64,000 nt of DNA, from assembly GCA_015143295.1 (NCBI GenBank), contig CM026565.1, positions 11,406,041 to 11,470,040 on the forward strand, given 5' to 3'. Shown piece by piece: positions 9,317-52,962 of the stretch. Position numbers and translations under genes: made by a program. The stretch's first letter is position 1; each line of letters begins with the position of its first letter. Under the pieces are notes generated by a model. It was not told where the DNA came from and made no database searches. It saw only the letters and a program-made list of their open reading frames with translations. The DNA is from Tetracentron sinense (lineage: Eukaryota; Streptophyta; Magnoliopsida; Trochodendrales; Trochodendraceae).

Positions 9317-12300
9317 CTACTCGAACAAGTGAGGGTACTTCTCCTTCACATCGGCTTCTCGTTCCCATGTGGCCTCTTCTGTAGAATGATGTTGTCGTCT
9401 CACAAGGACCAAAGGGATAATCTTGGTACGTAATACTTGATCGCGACGATCCGAAATCTGAACTGGTTGCTCAACCAACGTGAGATCCTCTCTAATCTTC
9501 ATAGGATCAAGAGCAATGACGTGAGACAGATCCGAAATGTATTTCCTAAGCATAAAGAAGTGAAATACATTATGGATCGCTGCCATGTGAGGCGGTAGTG
9601 CTACCTTGTAAGCAACCTCACCAACCCTCGTGATGATCTCAAATGGTCCTATGTACCTAGGATTGAGCTTTCCCTTCTTTCTGAATCGTATGATTCCCCG
9701 ACTTGGCGAAACCTTCACAAAGACCCGATCTCCAACTCGAAATTCCAAATCTCTACGGCGAGTATCCGCATAGCTCTTCTGCCTATCCTGAGCAGTTTTC
9801 AATCGCTCCCGGATAACTTTGACCCTTTCTACGGTCCGCTCGATCAACTCAGGACCAAGAACATTCCTCTCACCAACTTCATTCCAGTATAGCGGAGATC
9901 TGCAACTGCGACCATACAGAACTTCAAAAGGCGCCATCTGGATGCTTGCCTAATAACTATTGTTGTAAGCAAACTCAACCAACGGCAATTGTTCGTCCCA
10001 ACTACCCTGAAAGTCTAGCATACAAGCTTGGAGCATATCTTCCACAACCTGATTCACCCGTTTAGTCTGCCCATTAGTTTTAGGATGAAAGGCGGTGCTG
10101 AATTCCAAACGAGAACCCATAGCATCCTGAAAAGTTCTCCAGAACATGGAAGTAAACCTAGGATCTCGATCAGACACGATAGAAACTGGCACACCGTGCA
10201 GACGAACCACCTCCTTGACATACAGGGCTACTAACTGATTTGCGTTGAATGTAGTCCAATACGGAAGGAAATGTGCAGACTTAGTCAATCTGTCTACAAT
10301 CACCCAAATAGCATCGGAGCCCTTCGCCGTTCACGGCAAACCCACAATGAAATCCATCGAGATATTCTCCCATTTCCATTCCGGAATAAGGAGGGACTGT
10401 AAAAGACCTGCCGGCCTCTGATGCTCGGCTTTCACCTGCTGGCACACCAAACATCTAGCAACACACTCGGTGACTTCCCTCTTCCTGTTTCGCCACCATT
10501 AGTGCTTCTTCAGATTCTGATACATCTTGGTACCTCCCGGATGTACCGTATACTTGGATCAGTTAGCCTCGTCCAAAATCTCATCCCTCAACACCGTGTC
10601 GGCTGGAACGCACAACCTGCCTTTGAACGTGATAGCACCATCACCATTCAAAGCAAACTCCTGACTGCCACTACTGACCGACTTGTCTCGGTAAGCAAGC
10701 AACTCAACATCTGAACTTTGCAATTCCTTGATTCGGCTCAAGATTTGCGGCCTAACCACAATGTTGGACATCACCAACCCGTAGGTGACATGCCTGAGAG
10801 TAGTGTTTAAGTTACACATATCATTCAACAACTTCCACTCTTGTACTCTCAAGTGAGCCATAACCCCATAGGGTTTCCTAATAAGAGCATCGGCTACCAC
10901 ATTAGCCTTACCCGGGTTGTAATGGATAGAACATCGTAGTCCTTCATGAACTCCATCCATCGTCACTGCCTCATATTCAACTCATTCTTGAGAAAGAGAT
11001 ACTTCAAGCTCTTATGGTCCATGAATACCACAAACTCTTCCCCGTAGAGGTAGTGACGCCAAATTTTCAGTGCAAACACGATGGCTGCAAGCTCTAAGTC
11101 ATGAGTGGGGTAGTTTTGCTCATGCTCCTTTAATTGACGGGAAGCATAGGCAACCACTTGTTTACGCTGCATCAAAACACATCCCAGTCCAACTAGGGAG
11201 GCATCACTATAGACTTCAAAACCACCACTTCCGGATGGAACTGTGAGGACAGGAGCTATAGTAAGTCTCTTCTTCAACTCTTGGAAACTCACCTCGCACT
11301 TGTCACTCCAAGTGAACTTAGTGTTCTTCCACGTGAGATAGGTAAGCGGAGTGGCTAAGCTTGAAAATCCCTCCACAAACCTCCTGTAGTTTCCTGCCAG
11401 GCCGAGAAAACTACGAATCTCGGTAACACTCTTCGGTCTTTCCCAATTCATCGCTGCCTCAATCTTTGCAAGATCGATTGAGATACCTTCAGCAAACACT
11501 ACATGTCCAAGAAAGGAAACCTTGTTCAACCAAAACTCGCACTTACTCAACTTAGCAAACAGCCTATGCTCTTGAAGAGTCTACAATACAAAACGGAGAT
11601 CTCTCGTGTGATCATCCTATGACTGTGAATACACAAGGATATCATCTACAAACACAATCACACACTAATTGAGAGATGATCTGAACACCCGGTTCATCAG
11701 ATCCATAAATGCTGCTGACGCGTTAGTCAGCCCAAAAGACATGACTAGAAACTTGTAATGGCCGTATCAAGTCCTGAACGCTGTCTTCAGAATGTCTTCC
11801 TTCTTGATCTTCAACTGATGATAACTAGATCGAAGGTCAATCTTGGAAAAGAACTTCGCACCTTTCAGCTAATCAAACAAGTCGTCTATCCGAGGTAATG
11901 GATAACGATTCTTGATCGTGACCTTGTTCAACTGCCAGTAGTCAATGCACATACGCATAGACCCATCTTTCTTTTTCACAAAGAGCACCGGAGCTCCCCA
12001 AGGTGAGACACTTGGCTGAATGAAACCAAGGCCTTGCAATTCTTCCAACTGACCCTTTAACTCCTTTAGCTCAATAGGGGTCATCCTGTACGAAGACCTA
12101 GAAATCGGCGCCGTGCCTAGAGCTAACTCAATCACGAACTCAATTGCCCGATCAGGAGGTAATCCCAGTAAGATCTCCAGAAAGACGTCCATATATTCAC
12201 ACACAACGGGCATGGATGTGGAGTCTCGCACTTCCACCTTCTCGAGACTGAGAGCTGCAAAGCGAGCAATGTCTCTCCTCTGAAGTCCTCTGAAATGAAA

Positions 12301-12647
12301 TGGCTTCAACCCAGAGGGTTTAAAATTCACCACCTTCTCGAAACATGCCACGTGCCCATGGTGAGCTGAGAGCCAATTCATACCTAGGATGACGTCAAAA
12401 TCCCAATCCTGAAATCCCAGAATGATCAGGTCTACTGGCAACTCGTGCTGCATAACTTGCACAACACTGCCCCGATACACTTTATCTATCTCTATAGACT
12501 TGCCCAATGGGGTCGAAATGGACAACTCCCGTGGTAGTTTACTCGGCTCGGATGTAAAGCCTTTTGCAAAGCTAGGTGAGACGAACGAATGAGTGGATCC
12601 CGTATCAATTAACACCCTTGCTAAGCACTCATTCACTAGTAACGATC
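9317..12647 (-). pseudogene. Element A pol: protease, RT, RNase H, integrase, chromodomain-like tail
   Basis: In order on the minus strand come an aspartic protease ([12 protein letters not shown] near 12600), RT, RNase H ([12 protein letters not shown] near 11210), integrase with DRDPRFTS and NNSY blocks, and a C-terminal tail with EEATWEREADVKEKYPHLF near 9330, typical of Tekay-type chromodomain elements. The frame is broken many times. Compared with element G, stops at 11869 and 9950 are CAG changed to TAG, and the stop at 10963 is an arginine codon changed to TGA. Between about 11550 and 11869 the RT core is also mutated, with several stops around the FVDD motif. The enzyme set is complete in outline but cannot be functional. 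Confidence 0.9.
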
Positions 12648-12796
12648 CTGAGAATTTTAATCACCCAAGTTATAACATAAACCATACACACAAACTATAC
12701 ATATAGATACAAGCATCACAAAACATCACACAGGATACATATATACCACACATTATGGCAACATTAAAACTTAGACAAGATCAAACTTACGCGTAC
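12648..12796 (-). other. Intron-like segment between gag and pol, element A (149 bases)
   Basis: On the minus strand it begins GTACGCGTAAGT and ends TTAAAATTCTCAG, with GT and AG ends. It interrupts the otherwise continuous Gag to protease sequence after DDVVQ and before SLLVNEC. Read unspliced, the frame stops after about nine codons. The same segment sits at the same codon in elements E and G and is absent from F. No transcript evidence is available here. Confidence 0.75.
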
Positions 12797-13999
12797 GTTG
12801 CACAACATCATCAGATGCCTGTGCGTCTCTGTCAGTCATGGCAAAGACCCTGCCTTGGTTAGCCTGACGAGGCTGCTGGGTGGGCGACACCGATCTAAAG
12901 GCTTGTGATGAAGACCCCTGCAATGAAGTCTGCCTGCCTGGAGGCCGAACTCCCTGTGCCCAGTCTGTGACTGCTTACGCGGGCAATCTCGAATCATGTG
13001 GCCCATCTTGCCACAATGGAAGCATCCACCTGACATTCTTCGGTAATCCCCTGTCTTGTGCCGACGACCACACACGGCGCATTCCTCAAAAGTTTGTGAT
13101 GCGGAGGAAGCCAGAGGCATAACCCTTATAGCTTGTGATGTCGTAGGGCGCGGTGCCTGAGGCATAAAAGAAGGTCTCTAAGTCGACATCAACTGGGAGA
13201 ACTGATACGGTGTAGTCCTAGTCCTCTTCTCGGACGATGAACTACTAGACTGACCCCGAGACATGCTTTTTTCGAGGCCACTGTCTCTTCTTCTCATAAA
13301 GTCTTCCGCATTCTTCTCGGCGATCTTCGCCTTCCCTACTATCTCTCTCCAAGACTCCACCTGGAGAATGGACACCCGATCTCGAATAAAGGCCTTTAAG
13401 CCCATCTCAAACTTCCTGACCCGTAGGTCCTCAGTAGCAACCAAGTGCGGAGCAAACCTCAACAATTCGGTGAACTTAGCCTCATACTCGGCTACGCTGG
13501 GAAAGTACTGCTCCCTCGCTTTTTGTTCCCGAATAAACCTGGGAAAGTACTGCTCTCTAAAAGTCTCTAAGAACTCTGCCCAACTCCAGGGCACTCCTGC
13601 CTTTGCAACATCCCTCTGCCTTTGGGCAGCTCACCACCAATGTTCAGCTTCACCTTCCATCACGAAGGAAGCCCATTCTACTCGTTGCTCCTCAGTACAT
13701 CAGAGAGCCCGGAAGGTCTTCTCCAGCTGCATAATCCAAGACTCTGCCACCATTGGGTCCAGAGTACCATAAAATGTCAGAGGCAGCGATCTCCGGAAAG
13801 CTTCGAGCCCCGCGGTGTGATGCACCAGTGTAGGCACTGGGGTAGCCGGTGGGGTAGGAGTAGATCTCGCTGCCAACAACGCCAAAGTCTCGGCTATGGA
13901 GTCCAAAGCATTCGTGAAATACAATGATTCCTCTTCTCTCGAAACTTCACTCTCGACCCTCCAAGTATGGTAACCTTGACCCCGAGTGCCACGACTCAT
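12797..13999 (-). pseudogene. Element A gag
   Basis: The start ATG is at 13999 (MSRGTRGQGY). The retrotransposon capsid region has LEKTFRAL and the EGEAEHWW motif, followed by a serine-rich segment and zinc-knuckle remnants: CAVCGRRHKTGDY, with its last cysteine lost, then the good knuckle CFHCGKMGHMIRDC near 13010. TGA stops near 13697 and 13628 replace arginine codons present in element G. Around 13494-13560 a short direct duplication replaces part of the capsid. The 3' end meets the intron-like segment. It is not functional. Confidence 0.88.
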
Positions 14000-14427
14000 G
14001 ATATCAAATCTTGAGATCCATTGGGAAAACATGAGTCTAACTTGGATACCAACCTCACACATCATATAGCAGCTCAATATACATGAATTGCTATTACGCA
14101 TATCGTATACATCTAGGTATACACATAATCAAATAAGTATAACTTAGAGTGTCCTAGCGTGGCCAAGTTTCCTTGTGTTGGGCCTCTACCCTTTCTGGAA
14201 TAAAACTCAGGACATAGTCTAAACTAGCGCCTAGACTAAGATCCTAGACTGACTGAAGAACTCGCTTGACACCAGTTATGTCGTGGTAACAAGCCTAAGA
14301 CAACAAGTCCATCTGAGTTCTAAGTTCAAGTGGGAGAACTGCTTCCGCTTACTAGAGACAATTTCCTAGAGTAAGATAACTCTAGTTCCGACTTGAAGGA
14401 CACTAGCCTACGTGACCTAATGCCTAG

Positions 14428-21157: not shown

Positions 21158-21790
21158 CGTCGCGCCCCAAAATACCCCCTAGGAGTTAAGGGATACTTTA
21201 GGTGTGACTATACATAACCTGGCAAACCATCCTGCAAAGAACAAGGTATAACATGCTCTAATGGAAATATAATACAGAGTGCGGAAGCTATAAATATGGC
21301 GGAAGTACCACCAACTTTTTCTTTTCTTCTGTAAACTTAACAAGTATTCCAAGTTTATACAAAATATGACATGTAAAGGTGGACATGCCCACCTATCAAA
21401 ATACGAAAGACAAAATACAACTCTATCTCGCTCAATAGTCACCCTCGTGGGGCCAATGGTCTATGTCTCTCGCCTCAGTCTGGAGCTCAACTACCGAATC
21501 TTCATAAGGTTCTTCCTCACCGTAGTCCTCCTCACCCCAAGGACCCGGGGCACAAATGTCAAAAGGGACTCGTGTGCCTGCCATCATAAAAGTACGACTG
21601 AGCATGGAATACTCAGCGAGCACAAACTCCTAGCTAATAATAATAATAACGAGCAAAGCATCACATGCAAGTATTGGGAGATACAGTTCATACTCATTTA
21701 AAACAACATCATACATAACCATTTATTATATCACAACTCTACTGAAAATCAAACCATGTCTATAAAACAAATGAGTCCTTTCCATATCTC

Positions 21791-22193
21791 TTATGAGCCA
21801 CAGGTTAGTACCCGCACAACCCTGGGCTACCAACCTCCTTGACAGTACAATACTTCTGAGTCTTTTCTTATTAGCCAGGGGTTAGCACCCGCACAATCCT
21901 GGGCTACCAACCCCCTTGAAAATTCCAATACTTTTCTTATGAGCCAGAGGCTAGCACCCTTAACCGGGGCTACCAACCTCTTTGACAGTTCCATATCCTT
22001 TTCTTATGAGCCAGAGGCTAGCACCCTTAACCGGGGCTACCAACCTCCTTGACAGTACAATACTTTCGAGTCCTTTCTTATGAGCCAGGAGTTAGCACCC
22101 GCACTATCCTGGGCTACCAATCCCCTTGACAATACCATTTCTTATGAGCAAGAGGCTAGCACCCTTAACCGGGGCTACTAACCTCCTTGACAT
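21791..22193. repeat. LTR tandem repeat in element C, six units
   Basis: Units of about 64-77 bases start near 21791, 21868, 21938, 22004, 22078 and 22142. Each runs TTATGAGCCAGAGGCTAGCA ... GGGCTACCAACCTCCTTGAC. Related units occur three times and twice in the two LTRs of element E. Confidence 0.9.
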
Positions 22194-23014
22194 TTCCCCA
22201 TCTACATATGTGCTCGTGCATAGCAATTGTGAAAGCATGATGACATATAGCGTTTTAATAATTCCAAAATCATATGAGAATTTAAGAAGCGAAATAACCA
22301 CATGCCTACAACTTGCAAAAATGGGGAACATTATATAACTCATGCTTTCAAAATCTTGGTTCATTCATGCATTCTATCAAACATGTGGTATTGAATCTTT
22401 TACCTTTAGTTATTTCGTATTTTCTCATTCGAACATTTCATCAAACACTTGGGGTGTGTTCATTATGAGTAAGATGCCCTTCCACCATTTTTCCATAACA
22501 CACACATCAAAATCCATGGCAACCCATATCCTCAATCCCTTCCTCCATCCATACATTTCACCATTCATTCATTTTATCTTGTATATGTTTTAGGGATTTA
22601 GCATATTTCAACACAATGGATGAATGGGGAAGATACAACACACCAAAATCACAAAGAAATCTAGATTATTACCATAGTAGCTAGGAAGTGTGTACTAACC
22701 TTGAAAGAAGAAGAGAAAAACCCTTAAAATGCCTAGGGAGACGCTGCCCTAGCTTAGAGAACGAGCTCCACATGTGCTTGAGGTTGGGTTTGATGGATCC
22801 AAGCCTTTTGGGATGATCTTGTGTGTTCAAACCCTTGATCTTTGCTCAAAAGTAACCCTAGATGAAAACCCCTCTTTTTCTTCTCTCCCTTTCTCTCAAA
22901 TGGGATGTCTTAGGGTTTTTTGAACGCATATGGCTCGGGCAAGCCTTTATGGGTAAGGGTTTAACACCCAAAAGATGAAAAAGCCCTTACTGAAATTTCT
23001 GCAAAACGCGATAG

Positions 23015-25887: not shown

Positions 25888-26828
25888 CTTAGCTATGCTT
25901 CTCTTTGATTTTATTGAGTTTAATCAAGATTTATATCAAGATTGCCTCCCCTATGAATTTTGGTTACCCTAATGAATCAATCTTCTAGATTCTTGATGAT
26001 TAGATAATCATTGGTAGGGTTAAGGAATCCTCCTCTAGTTATTGAGGGAGTAATCAAGCCCTTAGAAATTAGTGTGATACTATTTTCAATTTTAGATGTT
26101 TTCTGTCGCACCCCAAAATACCCCCTAGGAGTTAAGGAATACTTTAGGTGTGACTGTGTGTACCTGCCAAACCATCCTATAATGAACAATGTACACATAC
26201 CATAACATAGCATGAATCAGAGTGCGGAAGCTGTATCATAATGTGGAAGCGTAAACTAACTTTTTCTTTTCTTCTAAAATTCCAAAGTAGTATTCCAAGT
26301 TAACATATACAGAACATATCAAGTCTAAGGTGGACAGACCCACCTATCAAAATATACAAAAGAACCCTCTCGTACTCTCCCCTCAACAGTAGTCGAGGTA
26401 TGGCCACACGTCGAGGTCTCTATCCGCTTGAGACTGTAACGGAATAGACGGCTCTCTCTCCTCAATGTACTCTTCCTCGACCCAAGGCTCCGAGTCGACG
26501 GCTTCCTCGGTATCTACTGACATAAAGGTACGGTTGAGCATGGAATACTCAGCGAGCACAAACTACTAGCTAACCATAGCAATAATAAAAGCACAACAAG
26601 GGTGAACACAATACAAGGCATCAATTCCAAGCAACAATAGTATCATGAGATAAACAATATTGATCATAAAATAATATCATTATTTTGACATGCGTGCGTG
26701 AATGCGAAAACTCTGATAAAACTCATGCTTGGAAAACTCGTTTCATGTCTCGGTATTACTTGTGAAAATCATGCATGCATGTCTTATTTCATCTTGTATA
26801 CTTGTAAGCCTTTTCTTGTGAGCCAGTT

Positions 26829-27020
26829 CTTGTGAGCCAGAGGCTAGTACCTTTTACCTGGGCTACCAACCTCCTTGACATATTTCATTTACTTGTGAGC
26901 CAGAGGGTAGCACCCAAACCTCCCTAGGCTGCCAACCTCCTTGACATATTGCGATTTTTGGTTTTCTTGTGAGCCAGAGGCTAGTACCCGAACCTCCCTG
27001 GGCTGCCAACCTCCTTGACA
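26829..27020. repeat. LTR tandem repeat, three units
   Basis: Units start at 26829, 26892 and 26965 with CTTGTGAGCCAGAGG and end with CCAACCTCCTTGACAT. Confidence 0.9.
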
Positions 27021-28003
27021 TGCAATGTTTTCTTGTTGATTTATTATATTCATATGCTCTTGAAAACTCGGTTCATGCAAACATGCGTGCTCGTGTGCGT
27101 GCCAATAGGGACAATCATGGGAACATGTGTAACAAGAGGGATATTACGTCACATTTCCATTCATAGTATAAACATGTGAGAATTTAGGTGATCAACATAG
27201 CATTTGGTCAAGTCATCATTTACAAGAATAATTGCATATAGTTTACATCCATTTCCTTAATTAAATTCATTTGTTCTTGGTTGAGGCATATTGTTAAACA
27301 TCCGGCGTGCAACATCTTCTTGTAGTTCCATTTACCCTTTTTAGCGCATATTTTCCAACACAACATCGAAGTATGTTCATTATCTGTAGAGTACCATTCC
27401 ACCATTTCCATCACCCACATCACACATCATATATCTCGGCATCCAATCGCCTCAACCCATTTCATCCATTCATACATCACCACATTCCTTATTATCTTGT
27501 TTACATTGTATAGAAATGGCACATTTCAAAAAGGGAAACATGAAATCAAGAATCATCAACAAAAATGGAAAAAACTAGGTTATTGCTAATGGGAGTTAGT
27601 AGGGTGTACTAACCTTGAATCAAGGCTTGACCTTGCGGAAACCTTGAAATAGAACCCCAAATGGTAGGGAAGAACCCTTGCTTGAAGAAGGCTTGATTTG
27701 GGGGAGAAACTCCTTGCAAAATGTCGTAGGATCGCTGCCCTAGCTTGAAAAGGAAACACCACACGAGCTTGAGGTTGGATTTGATGAATCCAAGCCCTTT
27801 TGAAATGATCTTGGGTGTTTAACCCTTGATCTCTTCACCAAGGATGCCCTAGGAGAAAAACCCTCTTCTTCTCTTCCCCTCTCTCTCTAAATGTTCTAAG
27901 TGTAGTGAATGGGGACCCAATTGCTCGAGCAAGCCCATAAGGGTAAGGGTTTAACGACCAAAAGATGAAAATCCCTTAATGAAATTTCTACAAAACGTGA
28001 TAG

Positions 28004-28534: not shown

Positions 28535-30946
28535 CTAAACAAATAACTGAGGATACTTTTCTTACACTTCGGCCTCTCGTTCCCATATTGCTTCCTCCAT
28601 TGAATGGTGTTGCCATCTTACCAAGACCAATGGAATGGTCTTGTTACGCAAGACTTGATCTCGCCTATCCAAGATCTGCACAGGTTGCTCAACTAGTGTG
28701 AGATCCTCCTGAATTTCTACCGGATCAAGCCCGATGACATGAGAAGGGTCCGGGATGTATTTCCGAAGCATGGAGATGTGAAACACATTGTGGACCGCCG
28801 CCATATGAGCGGGTAAGGCAACATGGTAAGCCACCTCACCGACTCTAGTAATGATCTCGAACGGACCCACATATCTCAAGCTAAGCTTGCCTCTCTTCCC
28901 GAATCTCATAACACCCTTAGTTGGTGAAATCCTGACAAAAACAAAGTCACCAACTCGAAATTCAAGGTCTCTCCTTCGGTTGTCGGCGTAACTCTTCTAT
29001 CTATCCTGTGCAGTCTTCAACCTCTCCCGGATAAGCTTGACCTTATCCGTGGTTTGTTCAATTAATTTGGGACCCAACACCTTCCTTTCCCCAACTTCAT
29101 CCCAATACAATGGGGATCTACAACTTCTCCCGTACAAAGCCTCAAAAGGTGCCATCTGTATGCTTGCCTGATAACTATTATTGTAGGTGAATTCCACCAA
29201 AGGTAGGTGATCTTTCCAACTTCTCTTGAAGTCTAGCATACATGCCTAAAGCATATCTTCAATAACCTGATTCACTCGCTCGGTTTGCCCATCCGTCTGT
29301 GGGTGGAAAGCCGTGCTAAAGTCCAACTGGGAACCCATGGCACTCTGAAAGCTCTTCCAGAACCTGGAAGTGAATCGAGGATCTCTATCCAACACAATGC
29401 TCACTGGTACCCCATGTAACCGAACTATTTCCTTGATGTACAGCGCCGCTAACTGATTTGAGTTGAATGTAATCCGGTACGGTAAGAAATGGATGGACTT
29501 CGTCAGTCTATCGACCACAACCCATATAGCATCACAGTTTCTAGCCATCTTTGGCAACCCCACAATGAAGTCCATAGAGATGTGCTCCCATTTTCACTCG
29601 GGAATAGGAAGAGACTGTAAAATTCCAACCGGTCTCCTATGCTCAGCCTTGAATTACTGTATACCAAGCAATGGGACACGTACTCCGATATTTCTCGCTT
29701 CATGTTCCGCCACCAAAAGTGCTTCTTTAAGTCCCTATACATTTTGGTACCCCCGGGGTGAACGGTGTACTTGGACCGGTGAGCCTCATACAAGATTTCT
29801 CGTTTAAGCTTCTCATCGGCTGGGACACATACTTTTCCCTTGAAAGTGATAATTTCATCGTCCCTCACCGAAAAATCCATACTGCCACTATTAACTGACT
29901 TGTCTCGGTATGAAAGTAGCTTGGCATCAATTCCCTGCAACTCTTTAATCATGCCCAGGATATATAGTCTAACTGTGACGTTAGCCATTCCGGCCCAAAG
30001 GTAGGGAGGCTAAAGCTGATGTCGAGGTTGGATGCATCTTCTAACAATCTCCACTCATGCACCATCATATGAGCCAAGTGTGCCATAAACTTCCGGCTAA
30101 GAGCATCGGCTACAACATTCGCTTTACCGTGATGGTATTGAATGGAGCACTCATAGTCTTTCAAAAACTCTACCCATCTTCTTTGCCTCAGGTTTAGCTC
30201 CTTCTGGGAGAACAAATACTTAAAGCTTTTATGGTCTGTGAATACCTCAAACTGTTCTCCATAAAGATAATGTCGTCAAATCTTCAATGCAAACACAACC
30301 GCGGCGAGCTCTAAGTCATGAGTGGGATAGTTCTTCTCATGCTCTTTCAATTGCCTTGAGGCGTAGGCAATAACCTTGTTGTGCTGTATGAGTACGCACC
30401 CCAACCCCACATCGAAGGCATCACTATATACAACGAAACCGCCGCTCCCGAAAAGCACTGTGAGGACGGGAGCCGTGGTAAGGTGTTCCTTCAACTCCTG
30501 GAAGCTCACTTCACATCGGTCGCTCCAACCGAACTTTGCATTTTTCTTTGTCAAGTAAGAGAGAGGTGCAGCTAAACTGGAGAATCCCTCCACAAATCTC
30601 CGGTAATAGCCTGCCAACCCGAGGAAACTACATATCTCAGTGACGCTCTTGGGTCTCTCCCAGCTCATAACTGCCTCTATCTTTGCTAGGTCTACTGAAA
30701 TACCCTCAGCTGACACTACATGTCCGAGAAACGCTACCTTCTCGAACCAGAATGCACATTTACTCAACTTGGCATATAACCGATGCTCCCTCAACATCTC
30801 CAGAGCAAGGCGGAGATCTCGTGCATGATCTTCCCGTGTCTGGGAATACACCAAAATGTCATCGATGAATACAATCACACATCGATCCAAGTACAATCGG
30901 CACACCCAGTTCATCAGTTCCATGAACGCCACCGGTGCATTCGTCA
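28535..30946 (-). pseudogene. Element E pol, part 3: RT end, RNase H, integrase, chromodomain-like tail
   Basis: It begins inside RT ([10 protein letters not shown]) at the G insertion point, passes the catalytic FIDDILVYS near 30860, RNase H ([12 protein letters not shown] near 30425), and the integrase zinc region, core (DRDPRFTS near 29378) and C-terminus. The normal end is TAG at 28535-28537, but a TAA 25 bases upstream truncates the chromodomain-like tail after EREAEV. Frameshifts lie near 30275, 29980 and 29650. In RNase H the usual VYSDAS is VYSDAF. The gene is dead but has clear domain order. Confidence 0.9.
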
Positions 30947-31483
30947 TGTCGCGACCCAAAATACCCCCTAGGAGTTAAGGATACTTTGACTCGTGACCGC
31001 CATATCATACCTCCAGTATGATACATAAGGCACACGTGGAAACCTGTCAGAGTACGGAAACGAAATACAATGCACAGCGGAAAATAAAATACTAAACATA
31101 GCGGAAGCAAAAAGAATACTCCTATAACTTGGCTCAAGTAAGAACCAACAAGTATACATGTGTGAGAAACCCAAAAGTGGAGTGGACAAACCCCACACTC
31201 ACATAACAAAAGACACAAGTTCTAAGTCGGTCGATCAACAGAAATCGAAGTCACGACTCCTATCTAAAGCACCATCATCATGATAGTGATCCATGGAAGG
31301 CTCCGGGTCACGGTACTCTTCCTCAACCCAAGGTTCTTCGCCACACAAATCGAATGGAACCCGAGCACCTGCCGATCATAACAATATCGACTGAGCATGG
31401 AATACTCAGTGTATACAAACTAATAACAATAAAGCAGTTAGGCATGGAGCATACGAGACATGGAGAATGAAATCCGTAAAATC
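30947..31483 (-). mobile_element. Element G, 3' LTR, visible part
   Basis: The terminal 537 bases of the LTR run up to the gap, nearly identical to 35431-35968. Confidence 0.92.
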
Positions 31484-31583
31484 NNNNNNNNNNNNNNNNN
31501 NNNNNNNNNNNNNNNNNNNNNNNNNNNNNNNNNNNNNNNNNNNNNNNNNNNNNNNNNNNNNNNNNNNNNNNNNNNNNNNNNNN
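31484..31583. other. Assembly gap, 100 N
   Basis: Exactly 100 N, the usual placeholder for a gap of unknown size. By comparison with element G's other LTR and with element A, about 1.3 kb of LTR plus about 1.3 kb of integrase and polypurine tract are missing here. Confidence 0.95.
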
Positions 31584-33708
31584 CATCTTAGTACCTCCCG
31601 GATGTACCGTGTACTTTGATCGGTGAGCTTCATTCAAAATTTCATCCCTCAAAACTGTGTCGGCGGGGACACACAACCTGCCTTTAAATGTGATAGCACC
31701 ATCATCATTTAAAGCGAACTCCTGATTGCCGTTACTCCCGACTTGTCTCGGTAAGCAAGCAACTCAACATCTGAATTCTGTAACCTCCTTGATCTGGCTC
31801 AAGATCTGTGGCCTAACCACCACATTGGACATTATCGGCCCATACGTGACATGCCTGAGAGGAGTGTCCAAATGACACATATCATGTATAACTTCCACTC
31901 TTGCACTCTCAATTGAGCCATAACTCCGTAAGGTTTTCTGCTAAGAGCATCGGCCACCACGTTGGCCTTACCTGGATGGTACTGGATGGAACAGTCGTAG
32001 TCCTTCATGAACTCCATCCAACGACGCTGCCTCATATTCAACTCCTTCTGGAGGAAAAGATACTTCAAGCTCTTGTGGTCTGTGAACACCACGAATTCTT
32101 CTCCGTAGAGGTAGTGACGCCAAAGTTTCAGTGCAAAAATGACCGCAGCGAGCTCCAAGTCATGTGTGGGGTAATTCTGCTCATGCTCCTTCAGCTGACG
32201 GGAAGCATAGGAGACCACCTTTTTATGCTGCATCAAAACACATCCAAGTCCCACTAGTGAAGCATCACTATAGACTTCGAAACCACCGCTCCCAGATGGA
32301 ACTGTAAGAACAGGAGTTGAAGTAAGCTTCTTTTTCAACTCCAAGAAACTAGCCTCGCACTTATCACTCCAAGTGAACCTCGTGTTCTTCCGTGTGAGAT
32401 AGGTAAGCGGAGCTGCTAAACTTGAAAATCCTTCCACAAACCTTCTGTAATACCCTGCCAACCCGAGGAAACTACGAATCTCGGTGACACTCTTCGGCCT
32501 TTCCCAATTCATCACCGCTTCAATCTTTACAGGATCAACTGAAATACCTTCAGCAGATACCATGTGTCCAAGAAAAGACACCTTGTTCAGCCAGAACTCG
32601 CACTTGCTCAACTTAGCATACAGACTATGCTCTCGAAGTGTCTGCAAGACCAGACGGAGATCTCTCGTGTGATCCTCCTGTGACTGTGAATACACAAGGA
32701 TATCATCTACGAACACGATCACACATTGATCGAGAGACGATCTGAACACCCGATTCATCAAATCCATGAATGCTGCCGGCGCGTTAGTCAGTCCAAAAGA
32801 CATGACCAAAAACTCGTAATGACCGTATCGAGTTCGGAATGCTGTCTTCGGAATGTCCTCTTTCTTGATCTTCAACTGATGATAACCAGATCGAAGGTCA
32901 ATCTTGGAGAAAAACTGCGCACCCTTCAATTGGTCAAACAAGTCGTCTATCCGAGGCAATGGATAACGATTCTTGATCGTGACCTTGTTCAATTGCCTGT
33001 AATCAATACACATACGCATTGATACATCCTTCTTCTTCACGAAGAGAACCGGAGCTCCCCAAGGTGAAACACTTGGCCGGATAAAACCAAGGCCTTGCAA
33101 TTCTTCTAACTGCTCTTTTAACTCCTTAAGCTCAATAGGGGCCATCCTATACGGAGCTCTCGAAATCGGAACTGTGCCTGGAGCTAGCTCAATCGCAAAC
33201 TCGATTGCACGATCGGGAGGCAATCCCGGCAAGGTTTCCGGAAAAACATCCATATACTCACATACCACTGGAATGGGTGTGGAGTCTCGCACTTCTACAC
33301 CTTCGAGACTAAGAGCTGCAAAGCGGGCAATGTCTCTTCTCTGAAGTCCCCTGAAATGAAACGGCTTTAACCCCACGGGTTTAAAATGCACCACCTTCTC
33401 GAAACACGCCACGTGTCCATGGTGGGTTGAGAGCCAATCCATACCTAGGATGATATCGAAATCCCAATCCTGAATTCCCAGAAGGATCAAGTCGACTGGC
33501 AACTCGTGCTGCATGACTTGTACAACACTATCCGGATACACTTTATCTGTCTCAATAGATTTTCCCAATGGAGTCGAAATGGACAACTCCCTAAGTAGCT
33601 TGCTTGGCTCGGACGTAAAGCCTTTGGCAAAGCTTGGCGAAACGAACGAGTGAGTGGATCCTGTGTCTATCAACACTCTTGCCAAACATTCATTTACGAG
33701 CAACGAAC
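31584..33708 (-). CDS. Element G pol exon: protease, RT, RNase H (integrase lost in the gap)
   Basis: The open frame continues from the predicted splice acceptor at 33709. Counting from the leucine at 33703, the protease DTGS is at residues 13-16, RT has [16 protein letters not shown] (about 211-226) and the catalytic FVDD (331-334), and RNase H has candidate acidic residues D480, E517, D542 and D585. The frame runs 625 codons from the acceptor to a frameshift near 31880, just past RNase H, and ends at 31832. The following piece (31676-31584) shows the start of the integrase zinc region with [11 protein letters not shown] before the N run. The frameshift is probably a single mutation or an assembly error. 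Confidence 0.88.
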
Positions 33709-33846
33709 CTGAGAATTTGAATCATCCCAGTTATAACACAACTGTACATATAGATACAAACATCGCAAAACACCACATAGGACATATATAGATACGAACA
33801 TATCATGGCAATATTAGAACTTTGACAAAGACTAGTTCGCGCGTAC
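33709..33846 (-). other. Predicted intron between gag and pol, element G (138 bases)
   Basis: The donor is CAAG/GTACGC and the acceptor TTCTCAG/GTTCG on the minus strand. The gag exon from ATG 35062 is 1216 bases (three times 405 plus one) and the pol exon starts with the two bases that complete the codon, so splicing gives one open frame with a phase 1 intron (glycine codon). Unspliced RNA would end Gag after about 14 intron codons. TTATAAC, a possible branch region, lies about 25 bases before the acceptor. Confidence 0.8.
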
Positions 33847-35062
33847 CTTGCACAACATCATCAGATGCCTGTGCGTCTCTATCAGTCATGGCAAAGACTC
33901 TGCCCTGGTTTGCCTGACGAGGCTGCTGGGTAGGCTGCAAGGATCTAGAGGCCTGAGATGAAGACCCCTGAAGTGAATTCTGCCTGCCTGGAGGCCGAAC
34001 TCCCTGTGATCCAGACCGTGACTGCTTGCGCGGACAATCTCGAATCATATGGCCCATCTCGCCACAGTGGAAGCATCCACCTGACATTCTTCGGCAATCT
34101 CCAGTCTTATGCCGACGACCACATTCGGCGCACTCCTCAAATGTCTGCGATGCGGAGGAAGCCGGAGGCATAACCCTCGTAGCTTGCGATGCCGTAGGAC
34201 GCGGTGCCTGAGGCGCAAAAGAAGGTCTCTGAGCCGACATCGGCTGGGAGAACTGGTACGGTGCAGTCCTAGTCCTTTTCTCTGAAGAACTACTCGACTG
34301 ACCCCGAGACATGCTCTTCCCGAAGCCACTGTCTCTTCTTCTCACAAAGTCTTCCGCATTCTTTTCAGCGATCTTCGCCTTCCCTACTATCTCTCTCCAA
34401 GACTCTACCTGGAGAATGGACACCCGATCTCGGATGAAAGCCTTCAAGCCCATCTCAAACTTCCTGACCTGTAGGTCTTCAGTAGCCACCAAGTGCGGAG
34501 CAAACCTAGACAACTCGGTGAACTTAGCCTCATACTCGGCTACGCTCATCGACCCTTGCTCCAAAAGCATAAACTCTCTCGCCTTTTGTTCCCGAATAAA
34601 CCTGGGAAAGTACTGTTCCCTGAAGGTCTCTAAGAACTCCGCCCAAGTCCAGGGCACACCTGCCTTAGCAACATCTCTCTGCCTTTGGGCAGCTCTCCAC
34701 CAGTGTTCGGCTTCACCTTCCATCACGAAGGAAGCCCATTCTACCCTTTGCTCATCGGTACAACGGAGAGCCCGGAAGGTCTTCTCCAGCTGCATAATCC
34801 AAGACTCGGCCACCATGGGGTCCAGAGTGCCATAGAATGTAGGAGGCCGCAGTCTCCTAAAAGCTTCGAGCCCCGCGGTGTGATGCTCCGGTGTAGGCAC
34901 AGGCGTGGACGGTGGGGTAGGCATAGGCCTTGCTGCCAACAATGCCAAAGTCTCGGCTATGGAGTCCATAGCATTTGTGAAATACAACGGTTCCTCTTCT
35001 CTCGGAACTTCACTCTCGGCCCTCCGAGTATGGTAACCTCGACCCCGATTGACACGTCTCAT
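33847..35062 (-). CDS. Element G gag
   Basis: This is an open Gag frame of 405 codons from ATG at 35062 (MRRVNRGRGYHT) to the predicted splice donor. An upstream in-frame extension to 35116 starts only from TTG and was not used. It has an N-terminal proline-rich stretch, the capsid region (LEKTFRAL, EGEAEHWWRAA, the LEQGSMSVAEYEAKF motif typical of plant Ty3 Gag), a serine-rich linker, then two zinc knuckles: CAECGRRHKTGDC (CX2CX3HX4C, one residue short) and CFHCGEMGHMIRDC (CX2CX4HX4C). The end is DDVVQ. Gag packages element RNA and forms the particle. Without splicing the protein ends inside the intron. Confidence 0.9.
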
Positions 35063-35414
35063 GATCTCAAATCCTGAGATTAATTTGGCAAAACATGAGT
35101 CTAACTTGGATACCAAACCTCACATATCATATAGCAATTCAATAATCATGAAATGCTATACCGCACATAGTACACATCGAGGTATATATATATCATCATA
35201 TAATTATACTTTAGAGCCTATACTAGAACCTCGCATAGGACCACATCAATCTCGGATCCTATACTGACCTAAGGATTCACTTGATACCGGTTATGTCGTG
35301 GTAACAAGCCTAAGACAACTGAGTCCTTCTGAGTTCTAAGTTCAACTCATAGGAATTACTTCCGCTTAGGCCAAGCCTGAGTGACCTAACTAAGTCTGTC
35401 GTTAGACATAACTA

Positions 35415-35426
35415 GCTCTGATACCA
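35415..35426 (-). other. Primer binding site of element G
   Basis: The minus strand reads TGGTATCAGAGC, four bases inside the 5' LTR. Confidence 0.88.
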
Positions 35427-35430
35427 AGTC

Positions 35431-37278
35431 TGTCGCGACCCAAAATACCCCCTAGGAGTTAAGGATACTTTGACTCGTGACCGCCATATCATACCTCCAG
35501 TATGATACATAAGGCACACGTGGAAACCTGTCAGAGTACGGAAACGAAATACAATGCACAGCGGAAAATAAAATACTAAACATAGCGGAAGCAAAAAGAA
35601 TACTCCTATAACTTGGCTCAAGTAAGAACCAACAAGTATACATGTGTGAGAAACCCAAAAGTGGAGTGGACAAACCCCACACTCACATAACAAAATGACA
35701 CAAGTTCTAAGTCGGTCGATCAACAGAAATCGAAGTCACGACTCCTATCTAAAGCACCATCATCATGATAGTGATCCATGGAAGGCTCCGGGTCACGGTA
35801 CTCTTCCTCAACCCAAGGTTCTTCGCCACACAAATCGAATGGAACCCGAGCACCTGCCGATCATAACAATATCGACTGAGCATGGAATACTCAGTGTATA
35901 CAAACTAATAACAATAAAGCAGTTAGGCATGGAGCATACGAGACATGGAGAATGAAATCCGTAAAATCCTTAAAGTATGGAAACCGTGAAAACATATGTG
36001 AGATAATATTCGAAACAAAAACTGTAACCGTGTGAGTCAATCGATAATCATAGCCTTATGAGTTCTTGTGAGTTCATGGAGTTACTTAGAGTCATTGTGA
36101 TCCGTGGAGACATAGAGCATAGAGCAATACCGTAGAGCATTTCCATAAAGCATAACCTTAGAGATCTTAGAGCATTTTATTGTGATCCGTGGAGCTTGTG
36201 AGACGATCTTAGAGCATGATCATAGAGTTTCCTTGTGAGCATGGTATGATCCTTAGAGCTTGTGAAACGATCTTAGAGAAATCATAGAGTTACTTAGAAT
36301 CATTCATTATTCGTCTTTTCGTGAAAAACTTTGTTTGCACCTTAAGAAATCCATGGAAACCATCGGTTCATGCGAGACATGCGAGCATATGCACTTAATA
36401 AGAGAAATCATCATATTTAAGCATAGAATCCCTTAGAGGTATTTTATCAAACACTTAGAGTGCATCATAATAGTAATCCTTCATCCAAGTATATAATCAC
36501 ACCTTTTCATACATAGAATCAATACATATAGATAGGGCATATATAAGAAGAATCATATCTAGTAACTAGTAGGATTGCAAGATTGTAGTAGAGTGTATCT
36601 ACCTTGGTGAAATCAAAGATTTTGATTCCCAAAGGCTTGAACAAGCAATAACCTTGTGTTCTTGGTTGAGAATCACCAAGGGAAGTGGAAGAACCTTGAT
36701 CTTCCACAAGCTTGATCAACAAGTAGTTCCTCTCCTTCTTCTCTCTCTCAAAATCTCCTAAGGTAGGGCACAGAGGGTTTCTGAAACCCTAAGGCACGAA
36801 CTCAGCCTATTTATAGGCAAGGGGTGGTGTTTAAAGTCTTAAACACCCTTAATGAAGAAAAACTGCGTATGACCGATCGATCGGTGCTATGGACCGAGCG
36901 ATCGGAGGCTTACCGGTCGATCGGTGTTATGACCGAGAGATCGGTCAAAAACACACTCTCTGGAATTTTTCCCCATACAAAAAAGTTAACCGTGCGACAG
37001 CCATCGAGCGATCGGTAGTGGACCGATCGATCGCAGGTAATGACCGAGCGATCGGTGCTCTGTTATGCCTGGACTGTTTTGACCATATCTTTTTACTCGC
37101 TCGTCGGATTTCGACGATTCAACTTGCGTTGGATCCGTCTTTCGAAAACGAACATTTTTGACGTTTCGGAATTTCCGATTTCTCCCTTATTTATTAATTA
37201 GACTACGAAAACTATGAAAACGGTCAATTAGCTACGAAGGTGCTATTCATTAAGGACGAAAAAGTCCGGGGTGCTACA
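35431..37278 (-). mobile_element. Element G, 5' LTR (1848 bases)
   Basis: It runs TGTCGCGACC to GGGGTGCTACA. A TATAAATA box lies on the minus strand at 36815-36808, downstream (in transcription sense) of the palindrome array at 36872-37056. It belongs to the A-like family. Confidence 0.93.
36872..37056. repeat. CGATCG palindrome array, element G 5' LTR (best preserved)
   Basis: Cluster one has units centred near 36878, 36899, 36918 and 36938. Cluster two has units near 37009, 37028 and 37049. Spacings are 21, 19 and 20, then 19 and 21. The 14-base consensus is ACCGAKCGATCGGT. The clusters are separated by the CTCTCTGGAATTTTTCCCC spacer. Confidence 0.93.
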
Positions 37279-38880: not shown

Positions 38881-39661
38881 GTGCATCTCACAAGGATATC
38901 TCACAAGTGTATCTCACAAGTTACATGATCACAAGCAAGCACGCATGACATGCATGACATGACACGATCTACATGAATCAACCAAGATAGACAAGACGAG
39001 TTTTCAAGCACGAAAATGGTACTTATGTCAAGTCAAGTGCACGGTGTTTTCAAGGGTTTTATCGGCTTTTTACGAAATGCAAATATGATTATAAATTGCT
39101 TTACTTCCTTGTATGAAATGAATTGTTCCCGTTTAATATATATGAATTGCTCCTGATTTATGTATTGCCATTTGTATGCTATGACTGTTGGTTAGTATTT
39201 GGTACCCGCTCGGTATTCCATGCTCAGCCATACATCTTATATCGGCAGGTGATAGCAGAACGGCTGCTCCTTTTGATGTCTGTGCTCCGAGCCCTTGGGT
39301 GGAGGAGGAGTACGTTGAGGAGCCGGTGGAGGAACCTCAGGGAGAGGGTTATTATTAGGTGGTGGTAGATTCTGAGTGGATAACTGTGGGTGAACTTGAG
39401 AGTTAGATTTATGTATTTTGGCGGGCATGTCCGCACTTGCTTTTGGTTTCCTTTTTGTATAAATTTGGATCATGTGTGTATATACATAGAGGTTTGTTAG
39501 ATTTCCGCTGTGCTTTGTTATATGTTTCCGCTATCGTGTCCTCTTTGTATATGCTTTGTAGGTTTTTGCAGGTTAGTTCGTCAAGCAAGTCATGCAAGTC
39601 ATGATGAGTCGTCCAAGATTCACTCTAACTCCTAGGGTGGGTTTTGGGTCGCGACATCCGT

Positions 39662-40415
39662 GGCAAGGGATAACGATTCTTGATAGTTACCTTGTTCAAC
39701 TGCCGGTAATCTATGCACATTCTCATCGACTCGTCCTTCTTCTTTACAAAGAGGACCGGAGCTCCCCATGGCGAGACACTTGGTTGGATGAAACCAAGTT
39801 TTTGTAGTTCCTCAATTTGCTTCTTCAATTCTTCAAGCTTTATTAGGGTCATTCAATAAGGAGCTCTTGAAATTGGAGCCATGCCCAGAGCAAGCTCTAT
39901 AGCGAACTCAATCTCTCTATCAGGAGGCAACCCGGGAAGTTCCTCCGGAAACAAATCCAAGAACTCACTCACGACTGGAATGGCCGAGGAGTTTGGTGCC
40001 TCGGGGTTCACTATGCTCAAGGCTGCGAGGCGAGTAATATCCCTTTCTCTCAATCCTCGAAAGTGAAATCGTTTTACTCCTTTTGGCTTGAAGTTCACCA
40101 TCTTTTCAAAGCATGCAACATGCCTATGGTGGTTTGATAACCAATCCATTCCTAGGATGACGTCAAAATCCAAGTCTTGGAAATCTAGAACGATGAGATC
40201 GGCTAACAGTTCATTCTTCCCCACTTGCACCACACAATCTATAAATATTTTATCGGTATCAACTGACTTGTCGAGTGGAGTTGCAATGGTCAACTCCTGC
40301 TCCAATGGAGTAGCCTCAATCAAAAAGCCCTTTGCAAAACTGGGTGAGAGAAAAGAGTGAGTGGATCCTGTGTCAATCAACACTCGGGCAAGACACTCAT
40401 TCACTAATAAAGCAC
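39662..40415 (-). pseudogene. Element E pol, part 1: protease and RT start
   Basis: It starts after the predicted splice acceptor with ALLVNEC, then protease [12 protein letters not shown] (about 40370), the linker and RT start [18 protein letters not shown], ending at the H insertion. One TGA/TAG-type break lies near 39852. Confidence 0.88.
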
Positions 40416-40551
40416 CTACGCGATTGAGTAACTAATATCAATAGATTCCAAACAATAACAAGCATCATACATAGGTAACCCCTAGTAAAATTAACCACTC
40501 ATCATATAATGGAAATTATACACAACTTAAAACTCTAGAATTCTTGCGTAC
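40416..40551 (-). other. Intron-like segment between gag and pol, element E (136 bases)
   Basis: The donor is AAG/GTACGC and the acceptor GCGTAG/GTGC on the minus strand, at the same codon as in A and G. The body is clearly diverged from A and G while the ends and position are kept. The codon just before the donor is TAA, where A and G have CAA. Confidence 0.75.
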
Positions 40552-41787
40552 CTTACATGACATCGTCGGATGCACGTGCACCTTCTCTGATAAGGCAAAA
40601 ACTCGGCCCTGGGTGGCTGGGCGAGGAGGCGGTGTAGACGGTGAGGCCCTCGAAGCCTAGGAAGAGCCCTACTGAGAACTCTACCTAATAGGGGGCCTAC
40701 TCCCCTGAGAATGGGCTAGTAGATGATGTCGGGGGCAATCCCGAATCATGTGGCCTTGGTGGCCACAATGAAAATAGCCTCCTGTAGCCTTCTGGCATCC
40801 CCTTGCTGGATGCCTCCTTCCACAAAGGGTGCAAACATCTTGTTAATAGGCGGGAGGGGCATAACCTGTAGTCTGAGGTAATGCAAGGTGAGGAGCATAG
40901 GAGATAGCCAAGCGAAAAGCCGGTGGAGCAAAAGGGCGGGGAGCCTGTGGTGCAGAATACATCCTCGGTGACTGAGCCGACCCCACGGACTGGTATGACA
41001 TAGTCCTACCTCTCTTCTCTCCTGAACTACTAGACTGGCCTTTCTCTATCCCTCTTCTCTTGAAGAACTCTTTAGAATTAGCCTCCGCTATTAGTGCCTT
41101 GTCCACCACCTCGGCATATGTCTCGTGCCGGAACATCGAAACTCGGTCCTTGAGGTAGGCCTTCAACCCCCTCCCAAATTTCTGGGCTTTCATAGCCTTG
41201 GTAGCTATCATATGTGGAGCAAATCGAGATAGCTCCAAGAACTTAGCCTCGTAGGCGGCCACTGACATATTACCTTGCTCCAAGGTAATGAATTTGACCT
41301 CTTTCTTCTCCTTCATGCCTATGGGGAAATACTTCTTGTTGAAGACGTCCAAGAACTCGGCCCCTGTCCACTCTTGACCCTGTCGGGTCAAATCTCGGGT
41401 CCTAAGTGCAGACCTCCACCAATGATCGGCCTCACCTTCAAGCATGAAGGCGACCCAAGTGACCCTTTCTACCTCAGTCAGTGCCAATACTGAGAATATC
41501 TTTTCAAGTTATCAGATCCATCATTCGGCAACAAGCGGGTCAACTCTCCCACAAAATGTTGGAGGCCTCAACCTCTGAAAAGCCTCTATCCTAGCTTGAG
41601 CTCGATTAGAAGGAGTAGGTATAAGTGCCGCATTAGATGGAGTAGCCGGTTGCCTTGTCACTAGCATAGCCAAAGTCTCGGCTATTGAAGCAAAGGTTTG
41701 GGCAAAATCGGGTTGATCATCACCCGATGGAGCATCACTTCCATTGCCCCTTGTGTTGTATCCGCGACCCCGGGTATTGCGTCTCAT
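40552..41787 (-). pseudogene. Element E gag
   Basis: The ATG is at 41787 (MRRNTRGRGYNT). The capsid region has FQRLRPPTF, LEGEADHWWRSA and LEQGNMSVAAYEAKF, then a serine-rich linker. The zinc knuckles lie near 40820-40740 but are shifted out of frame; the second reads FHCGHQGHMIRDC in another frame and the first is degraded. A stop near 41521 and a frameshift near 40850 break the gene. Confidence 0.87.
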
Positions 41788-42092
41788 GATTTCTCCTGAG
41801 AACGACAATACAACACGAGTCTAACTTGGATACGCATTTAGTAATAGTTTCGCAATTCACTCAAAACATATTCACCAAGCATAGAATAAAGCACACATGG
41901 TTTACATAACAATGCCATAACATACAATCCGTGTTCTTAGCGTAGGATTCTAAGTTTGGTTGGAGTTCAACCTATTTTGACTAAGACTAACTTGTTAGTC
42001 TTTACTTGGAATACGACTCTTTCATAACACCCAATGCCTTGTTCAATTATGGTATCGGGTACTAAGCGACCCTAGGGACTCTAATGCCTAGA

Positions 42093-42104: not shown

Positions 42105-42831
42105 CTTCTGTCGCGCCCCAAAATACCCCCTAGGAGTTAAGGGATACTTTAGGTGTGACTATGTGTACCTGCCAAACCATCCTGTAATGAACAATGTACA
42201 CATACCATAACATAACATGAATCAGAGTGCGGAAGCTGTATCATAATGCGGAAGTGTAAACTAACTTTTTCTTTTCTTCTAAAATTCCAAAGTAGTATTC
42301 CAAGTTAACATATACAGAACATATCAAGTCTAAGGTAGACAGGCCCACCTATCAAAATATACAAAAGAACCCTCTCGTACTCTCCCCTCAACAATAATTG
42401 AGGTATGGCCACACGTTGAGGTCTTTATCCGCTTGAGACTGTAACAGAATTAACAGCTCTCTCCTCAATGTACTCTTCCTCGACCTAAGGCTCTGGGTCG
42501 AGGGCTTCTTCGGTACCGGCCGACATAAAGGTACAGCTGAGCATGGAATACTCAGCGAGTACAAACTACCAGCTAACCATAGCAATAATAAAATCACAAC
42601 AAGGGTGAACACAATACAAGGCATCAATTCCAAGCAACAATAGTATCATGAGATAAACAGTATTGATCATGAAATAATGTCATTATCTTGACATGCGTGC
42701 GTGAATGCGAAATCTCCGATAAAACTCATGCTTTGAAAACTCGTTTCATGTCTCGGTATTACTTGCGAAAATCATGTATGCATGTCTTGTCTTATCTTGT
42801 ATACTTGTGAGCCTTTTCTTGTGAGCCAGTT

Positions 42832-42950
42832 CTTGTGAGCCAGAGGCTAGTACCCTTCACCTGGGCTACCAACCTCCTTGACATATTTCATTTACTTGTG
42901 AGCCAGAGGCTAGCACCCGAACCTCCCTGGGCTGCCAACCTCCTTGACAT
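42832..42950. repeat. LTR tandem repeat, two units
   Basis: Units start at 42832 and 42894. The second unit joins the left flank of the middle unit to the body of the third unit of the other LTR, the mark of unequal exchange. Confidence 0.88.
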
Positions 42951-43932
42951 GCAATGCTTTCTTGTTGATTTATTATATGCATATGCTCTTGAAAACTCGG
43001 TTCATGCAAACATACGTGCTCCTATGTGTGCCAATAGGGACAATCATGGGAACACGTGTAACAAGAAGGATATTACATCACATTTCCATTCATAGTATAA
43101 ACATGTGAGAATTTAGGTGATCAACATGGCATTTGGTCAAGTCATCATTTACAAGAATAATTGCATAAAGTTTACATCCATTTCCTTAATTAAATTCAAT
43201 TGTTCTTGGTTTAGGCATATTGTCAAACATCAGGCGTGCAACATCTTCTTGTAGTTCCATATACCCTTTTTAGCGCATATTTTCCAACACAACATCGAAG
43301 TATGTTCATTATCTGTAGAGTACCCTTCCATCATTTCCATCACACACATCACACATCATACATCTCGGCATCCAATCGCCTCAACCCATTTCATCCATTC
43401 ATACATTACCACATTCCTTATTATCTTGTTTACATTGTATAGAAATGGCACATTTCAAAAAGGAAAACATGAAATCAAGAATCATCAACAAAAATGGAAA
43501 AAACTAGGTTATTGCTAATGGGAGTTAGTAGTGTGTACTAACCTTGAATCAAGGCTTGACCTTGAGGAAACCTTGAAATAGAACCCCAAATGGTAGGGAA
43601 GAACCCTTGCTTGAAGAAGGCTTGATTTGGGGGAGAAACTCCTTGTAAAATGTCGTAGGATCGCTGCCCTAGCTTGAACAGGAAACACCACACGAGCTTG
43701 AGGTTGGATTTGATGAATCTAAACCCTTTTGAAATGATCTTGGGTGTTTAAACCCTTGATCTTTTCACCAAGGATGCCCTAGGAGAAAAACCCTCTTCTT
43801 CTCTTCCCCTCTCTCTCTAAATGTTCTAAGTGTAGTGAATGGGGACCCAATTGCTCGAGCAAGCCCTTATGGGAGGGTTTAACGCTCAAAAGAAGAAAAA
43901 TCCCTTAATGAAATTTCTACAAAACGCAATAG

Positions 43933-51999: not shown

Positions 52000-52191
52000 A
52001 TGGTTTGTGGGATTTTAGCTTGGTTTCTAACTATCTTCCTGAAGGTATTATGAATGATATTAAGGATGCAGGCTCCGAGACAAATGATCTCTTCATCTGG
52101 AAACCTTGTTTTAATGGTAGTTTTTCTATTAAATCAGCTTAGAAGTCTATTAGATATTCTTCAACCCAAAAAGTTTGGACTAGGTATGTTT
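52000..52191 (+). pseudogene. LINE ORF2 segment 3, start of the zinc-binding domain
   Basis: It encodes VWDFSLVSNYLPEGI ... DLFIWKPCFNGSFSIKSA, the region before the cysteine-rich domain of plant LINE ORF2. There is a TAG stop at 52140. It ends at the TGTTT duplication where F inserted, and continues in frame at 62946 as KVWTRYVWNNTVLKM. Confidence 0.9.
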
Positions 52192-52891: not shown

Positions 52892-52900
52892 TATATAAAG
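52892..52900 (+). promoter_or_regulatory. TATA box, element F 5' LTR
   Basis: TATATAAAG follows GACCTTATC and precedes GAGGCCAACCTCCCCC. The 3' LTR copy is at 60861-60870. Confidence 0.8.
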
Positions 52901-52962
52901 GAGGCCAACCTCCCCCATTTTCTCACGTTTTGTAAACAGGGGAGGTTCTGCCATAGCACTTT

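Follow-up and report, generated by a model that had tools for sequence, protein, structure and literature searches.

How do plant Ty3/gypsy retrotransposons that hold gag and pol in a single open reading frame (ORF) make more Gag than Pol? To our knowledge this question is largely open. Elements with long terminal repeats (LTRs) need Gag in excess of Pol, and several strategies that achieve it are described (PMC12786077, PMC3735527). A 64,000-nucleotide stretch of the genome of Tetracentron sinense (assembly GCA_015143295.1, contig CM026565.1, positions 11,406,041 to 11,470,040 of the forward strand; hereafter the window) raises the question anew, as three of its elements, which we call A, E and G, carry a short non-coding segment between gag and the protease. 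An initial annotation of the window had taken this segment for a conserved intron in a Tekay-like chromovirus lineage. From what can be read in the DNA, we consider it likely that in this segment a chromovirus lineage carries a spliceosomal intron of the GT-AG type, whose splicing efficiency would set the ratio of Gag to Gag-Pol. What the sequence provides directly is the position of the segment, its phase, its splice-site-like ends, its exact loss on several branches and the LTR-type integration of some of the copies that lost it. The intron reading thus gains from the follow-up: 18 exact losses were found in several subfamilies, no partial deletion turned up in the gaps searched, and five of the nine loss copies examined are bracketed by perfect target duplications.

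All three segments lie on the minus strand. In G, the segment occupies positions 33709..33846 (138 bases), with the donor AAG/GTACGC at 33846 and the acceptor TCTCAG/G at 33709. Its counterpart in A spans 12648..12796 (149 bases, GTACGC...TCTCAG) and that in E 40416..40551 (136 bases, GTACGC...GCGTAG), with an interior that has diverged from both A and G. The places, lengths and GTACGC/AG ends first assigned to the three segments are exact. Upstream of the segment in G lies gag, exon 1 (33847..35116, minus strand, with Retrotrans_gag, Ty3_capsid and CCHC matches; these coordinates are not set by a start codon), and downstream lies exon 2 (31832..33708, minus strand), with domain matches to protease, reverse transcriptase and RNase H. 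A search of NCBIfam with both G exons gave zero matches. The corresponding exons of A, also on the minus strand, are a gag exon that contains stops (12797..14029) and a protease-reverse transcriptase-RNase H exon (10777..12647). In E, on the same strand, the gag exon (40552..41793) is degenerate and ends in a TAA immediately upstream of the donor, and the second exon, from the protease onward, can be followed over 39655..40415, the limit at which similarity to G stops. Further stops are found in both A and E, so that G alone among the three has both flanks open while A and E have decayed.

When the frames of the two flanks are read separately, the upstream frame ends one base into a codon in A, E and G alike and the downstream frame begins with the two bases that complete it, confirming that the segment interrupts one common codon in phase 1. 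In G, the last base of exon 1 is position 1 of a glycine codon and the first two bases of exon 2 supply the rest. The proposed glycine at the split codon stands for G and E (GGT) and fails for A, which has CGA, an arginine codon. Element F, on the plus strand, is indeed uninterrupted at the homologous glycine (codon 56732..56734, a place derived from tblastn coordinates), where it reads ...GVIEGKLLVF.... Unspliced RNA had been expected to end Gag within 9-14 codons; this is correct for G, with 14 residues, and the tails of A (8 residues) and E (5) are shorter than predicted. Alignment of A with G gives 353/399 identical positions in exon 1 (88%, 2 gap columns), 108/135 in the segment (80%, 17 gap columns) and 505/600 in exon 2 (84%, gap-free). 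Between E and G, exon 1 (226/374, 60%, 52 gap columns) and exon 2 (399/600, 66.5%, gap-free) are less similar and the segment aligns at 55/109 positions with 56 gap columns, in agreement with the view that E has diverged inside the segment and kept both of its ends.

How widespread is the segment? We ran a degenerate pattern, whose anchors are the final codons of exon 1 and the initial codons of exon 2, with varying gaps (1-90 and 130-160 bases) over the window's own genome (1,161,278,568 bases); only copies that fit the anchors exactly are counted, hence all counts are lower bounds. With a gap of 130-160 bases the pattern matched 1328 times (681 + 647, fitting window copies included) and its reversed control not once. 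A segment of similar length at the same site in 1328 genomic copies is not there by chance. With a gap of 1-30 bases we obtained 18 matches (11 + 7), again against none for the reversed control, and all 18 have a single gap size, the one expected if the GT-AG segment is removed precisely. Gaps of 31-60 and 61-90 bases yielded two and four matches, each with the head of the pattern inside the intron, and no partial deletion.

The segment has the appearance of a plant intron, judged by its conserved ends, diverging interior and T-richness. We examined the first 40 of 100 listed intron-bearing copies, all on the contigs C1 and C2. The segment is 130-154 bases long in this sample, and its length leaves a remainder of 0, 1 or 2 on division by three in 17, 14 and 9 copies. 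The donor is GT in 39/40 copies and GC in one, most often in the form GTACGC (30/40) or GTATGC (6/40); the acceptor is AG in 35/40. Conservation runs at 0.82-1.00 over donor positions +1 to +6, falls to 0.33-0.85 over +7 to +19 and returns to 1.00 at +20; on the acceptor side, positions -12 and -9 stand out (0.93 and 0.97). The conservation of the bases that adjoin the segment is partly built in, as the search pattern requires them. T makes up 41% of the segment and 26% of the flanks, and U-richness relative to exons is described as a mark of plant introns (PMC3735527). Two of the 100 listed copies have a GC donor (G000:C1:32650905-32651082 and G000:C3:6028092-6028262), and in a further one (C2:56367177-56367343) a few bases just past the donor GT seem to be absent.

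The split codon is glycine in 38/40 intron-bearing copies and in 18/18 exact-loss copies. The expected frame is the one with the fewest stops in exon 1 of 32/40 copies and in exon 2 of 36/40; the last 400 bases of exon 1 are stop-free in 17/40 and the first 600 bases of exon 2 in 21/40. Reading on from gag without splicing meets an in-frame stop after 2-26 residues in every one of the 40. For a 742-base query spanning the segment, the best 40 of 3806 candidates are 99-100% identical; this query contains the intron, so its 40 full-length matches carry no information on the frequency of loss. Among 30 such near-identical loci, 29 could be anchored for a frame count (L021 was left out): the gag frame has at least 370 open codons upstream of the donor in 25, exon 2 has no stop up to the locus end in 20, and the unspliced frame stops after 14 residues in all 29.

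By exon identity, nine of the 18 copies that have lost the segment are G-like, about 97-99% identical to G in each exon, one is A-like (L044), one is E-like (L040), and the remaining seven fall into other subfamilies. The loss leaves both flanks stop-free in 8/18 copies. L049 is collinear with G (window 37278-33845 and 33710-31584), small gaps aside, lacks the segment, and has a 566-codon ORF running through the junction. Insertion marks were examined in nine of the loss copies. Perfect 5-base target duplications lie outside the LTRs of L049 (the L045 copy; TTCCA), L050 (the L041 copy; CTAAC), L032 (TGTGT), L033 (GTATG) and L034 (TAATT), and that of L046 matches at 4/5 bases. The two LTRs differ at one of 1866 aligned positions in L049 and one of 1865 in L050 (99.95% identical), and the compared LTR pieces of L032, L033, L034 and L046 are 98.9, 98.2, 99.1 and 97.2% identical. 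The simplest reading is that the segment-free copies represent footprints of spliced RNA that was reverse transcribed, and it is because they read in this way that we take the segment for a spliceosomal intron.

To explain these results, we propose that the intron acts as a switch placed inside a strongly conserved glycine codon, with the zinc knuckle of Gag upstream and the protease downstream. Unspliced RNA would yield Gag with a short intron-coded tail (5-14 residues in A, E and G) and would be the form that is usually packaged and copied, because 1328 of the 1346 counted copies keep the intron. In the spliced fraction, gag would be joined to pro-pol in a single frame and give Gag-Pol, so that the efficiency of splicing would determine the ratio of Gag to Gag-Pol. 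This role is plausible and follows the precedent of Ogre elements. Occasionally, a spliced RNA would enter the element's own route of packaging, reverse transcription and integration, leaving an intron-free copy. Such copies would make Gag-Pol only and would seldom multiply, and selection would keep the intron in place.

Could the intron be real and yet a mere passenger? It might be spliced constitutively, or serve RNA export only, with the excess of Gag obtained otherwise. The sequence suggests that splicing happened and not to what extent, and two young loss copies have both LTRs in full, with target duplications outside them, which implies that RNA without the segment can be mobilised; both points speak for a passenger intron. 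However, nearly all of the counted copies retain the segment although exact loss recurs, and the stops that close the unspliced frame within 26 residues throughout the 40-copy sample would make unspliced RNA Gag-only, a logic that is also published for Ogre (PMC6317226). We therefore regard a passenger intron as unlikely, though it is the alternative that fares best.

Instead of being spliced out, the segment could have been deleted between short AGG(T) repeats that lie at its two ends, either while the RNA was reverse transcribed or in the course of DNA repair. AGGT is found at both boundaries in G, a direct repeat of four bases, and the boundaries of E share a repeat of at least four bases as well. 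If such repeats were at work, other gaps should have been produced too: G contains 66 pairs of repeats of at least three bases (19 of at least four) that would give detectable gaps, of which one pair only is exact, yet 18/18 losses are exact and the gaps searched hold no other partial deletion, which makes slippage very unlikely. In A, L092 and L086, which may differ from the parents of the loss copies, the two ends that would have to pair have fewer than three bases in common. Altogether we give this mechanism very little credence.

A last alternative, that the segment is an unspliced spacer and the copies without it descend from an old intronless lineage, carried into several subfamilies by recombination, which is common among elements in general, would account for the lack of the segment in F and in 52 relatives that cover the site, and for some clustering of presence and absence on trees, but it is highly improbable given that the loss copies nest within intron-bearing groups and force at least 4-6 changes, that nine of them are as close to G in both exons as noted above, and that the splice-site ends are conserved where much of the interior is not.

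The trees behind these numbers deserve a closer description. Our exon 2 tree has 72 rows, with F as outgroup, L031 and L076 included, and 10 of the 30 loci L001-L030; it requires 13 changes between presence and absence (11-14 in bootstrap trees), at least five of them forced by well-supported branches. In second trees, from which the long-branch rows L031 and L076 were removed, exon 1 requires 11 changes, of which at least four are forced, and exon 2 requires 13, of which at least six are.

Several observations weigh against the view that each segment-free copy is an independent footprint of spliced RNA, or more generally against an intron. Presence and absence are clustered: the 13 changes of the first exon 2 tree compare with a mean of about 16 after shuffling, with 12/500 shuffles as low, and in the second trees 3/500 (exon 1) and 43/500 (exon 2) shuffles were as low, so some loss copies share one loss. 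Well-supported branches of the exon 2 tree join the loss copies L037/L038, L042/L047 and L035/L036 in pairs, which means that intron-free copies may themselves have been copied, and recombination between elements could inflate the count of losses. Insertion marks are not found everywhere either: the 3' LTR of L035 was not found where it was expected, and in 10 kb no LTR pair flanks the junction of L051 (the L044 copy), where no repeat pair was detected, or that of L052 (the L040 copy), where repeats occur but not on both sides of the junction. Among the 40 intron-bearing copies, five have no AG at the acceptor, and decay is frequent, the last 400 bases of exon 1 being interrupted by a stop in 23/40 and the first 600 bases of exon 2 in 19/40. 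Finally, the 52 relatives are predicted proteins, in which an intron could be hidden by the gene model.

A separate observation concerns L035 and L036 (G000:C7:27998636 and 28014549), two intron-free, G-like sisters in the exon 2 tree. They are separated by 16 kb, point in opposite directions and both have GGA at the split codon; they are perhaps a local duplication.

Where does the intron come from? We took the best 120 of 8000 relatives of pol and counted the site as covered when the protease motif is preceded by at least 22 residues. This holds for 52/120, and in 52/52 a glycine stands exactly 12 residues ahead of the motif and the reading continues from gag into protease. Together with F, these relatives suggest that the codon split by the intron is a conserved one and that the intron itself is derived. 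Gly-Thr is frequent at the site among intronless relatives, and the GGT ACN of such relatives resembles the donor G/GTAC; that the intron arose when a few bases around AGGT were duplicated in tandem is offered here as an idea only. Close relatives of Gag are few in the protein database. A search with an E-like gag returned four proteins, the closest two being P0001 and P0002. P0002 (source 'ena') is a gag fragment that ends VVQGTSSQSFITAWY; within its last 20 residues, a tail that looks non-coding follows directly on the homologous glycine. Over stretches longer than 60 residues, its identity to the loci compared reaches about 60% at most. The tail resembles, and may represent, read-through into a similar intron, which is weak protein evidence for the intron in another species.

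To which lineage does the intron belong? G itself (30943-37278) is a deletion derivative, in which integrase and chromodomain are missing at about 31584-31483. Its 5' LTR lies at 35428..37278 (minus strand), and of its 3' LTR a remnant of 541 bases is left (30943..31483, minus strand), 99.6% identical to 35428-35968. The complete intron-free relative, L049, has what G is missing: an SH3_Tf2-1 match (94 bits), a Chromo match (27.3 bits, cut-off 25.1), an integrase zinc domain and a weak match to the integrase core, rve (23.6 bits, under the cut-off of 32.6). The chromodomain of L049 makes the intron-bearing lineage a chromovirus. The LTR of L049 is about 1.87 kb long, its ORF stops before the polypurine tract, and directly after the 5' LTR stands TGGTATCAGAGC, which we take to fit a primer site for tRNA-Met. 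Chromoviruses of Beta are described with a primer site for tRNA methionine, and long LTRs, together with an ORF end upstream of the polypurine tract, fit Tekay over CRM or Reina as these are described in Beta (PMC3605345). A possible assignment to Tekay is consistent with the long LTRs and with a chromodomain upstream of the polypurine tract. An Ogre (Tat) identity was also considered, and is contradicted by the chromodomain of L049 and by the location of the segment upstream of the protease.

The window also holds F (52191-62940), which belongs to a different lineage beside the intron-bearing elements; its end repeats are about 2.8 kb long and 96% identical, and its chromodomain match (20.4 bits) is under the cut-off. 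Short tandem repeats at 21789-22197, 26827-27026 and 42826-42961 are common to all three places, with self-match offsets of about 63-77 bases.

Plant LTR elements are generally intron-free according to a 2025 review, which names Ogre and EVADE among the exceptions (PMC12786077). The closest known system is Ogre, of the Tat lineage of Ty3/gypsy, likewise with a short intron in the polyprotein region; in Ogre, a non-chromovirus, the gap lies between GAG-PROT and RT (reverse transcriptase) and averages 274 bases. A survey of plant elements names Bianca and Ogre as having two separated ORFs (PMC6317226). By contrast, the intron described here lies before the protease, in a conserved glycine codon, has the length range given above for 40 copies, and sits in a chromovirus. 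With Tekay/Del chromoviruses, its carrier has in common the chromodomain upstream of the polypurine tract, the tRNA-Met-type primer site and long LTRs. The rice element CRR is a centromeric chromovirus of the CRM clade. Splicing is reported for CRR, another Ty3/gypsy element, in which rt is said to be removed (PMC3735527). BARE1, a Ty1/copia element and likewise a plant LTR element, has a short U-rich intron of 104 bases near the end of gag, whose splicing shifts the frame and produces a Gag-only RNA (PMC3735527), whereas in the present lineage splicing would be needed for Gag-Pol. Unlike the lineage studied here, chromoviruses of Beta vulgaris, among them those of the Tekay clade, are described as having a single continuous ORF for gag and pol (PMC3605345). 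For Tekay-type elements, no account of an intron between gag and protease came up in a search that covered mostly titles and the starts of abstracts, with most subscription journals outside its coverage.

Taken further, the data would tell a broader story that we put forward tentatively, as a possibility slightly short of an even chance: an intron gained between gag and pro would have become the switch between Gag and Gag-Pol, spliced RNA would leak into reverse transcription at a low and countable rate (18/1346), and intron-free offspring would hardly multiply, such that the genome would record both splicing and selection; the donor would fit gain by duplication around AGGT. The reverse copying of spliced RNA into DNA is usually studied with artificial intron reporters (PMC12786077), and the exact-loss copies would show its frequency as recorded in a natural genome. 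For the question of how single-ORF elements obtain their excess of Gag, the intron-bearing lineage offers a clear answer that is checkable in RNA. If this answer is true, a regulatory intron of the Ogre type would have arisen at a different site in a chromovirus.
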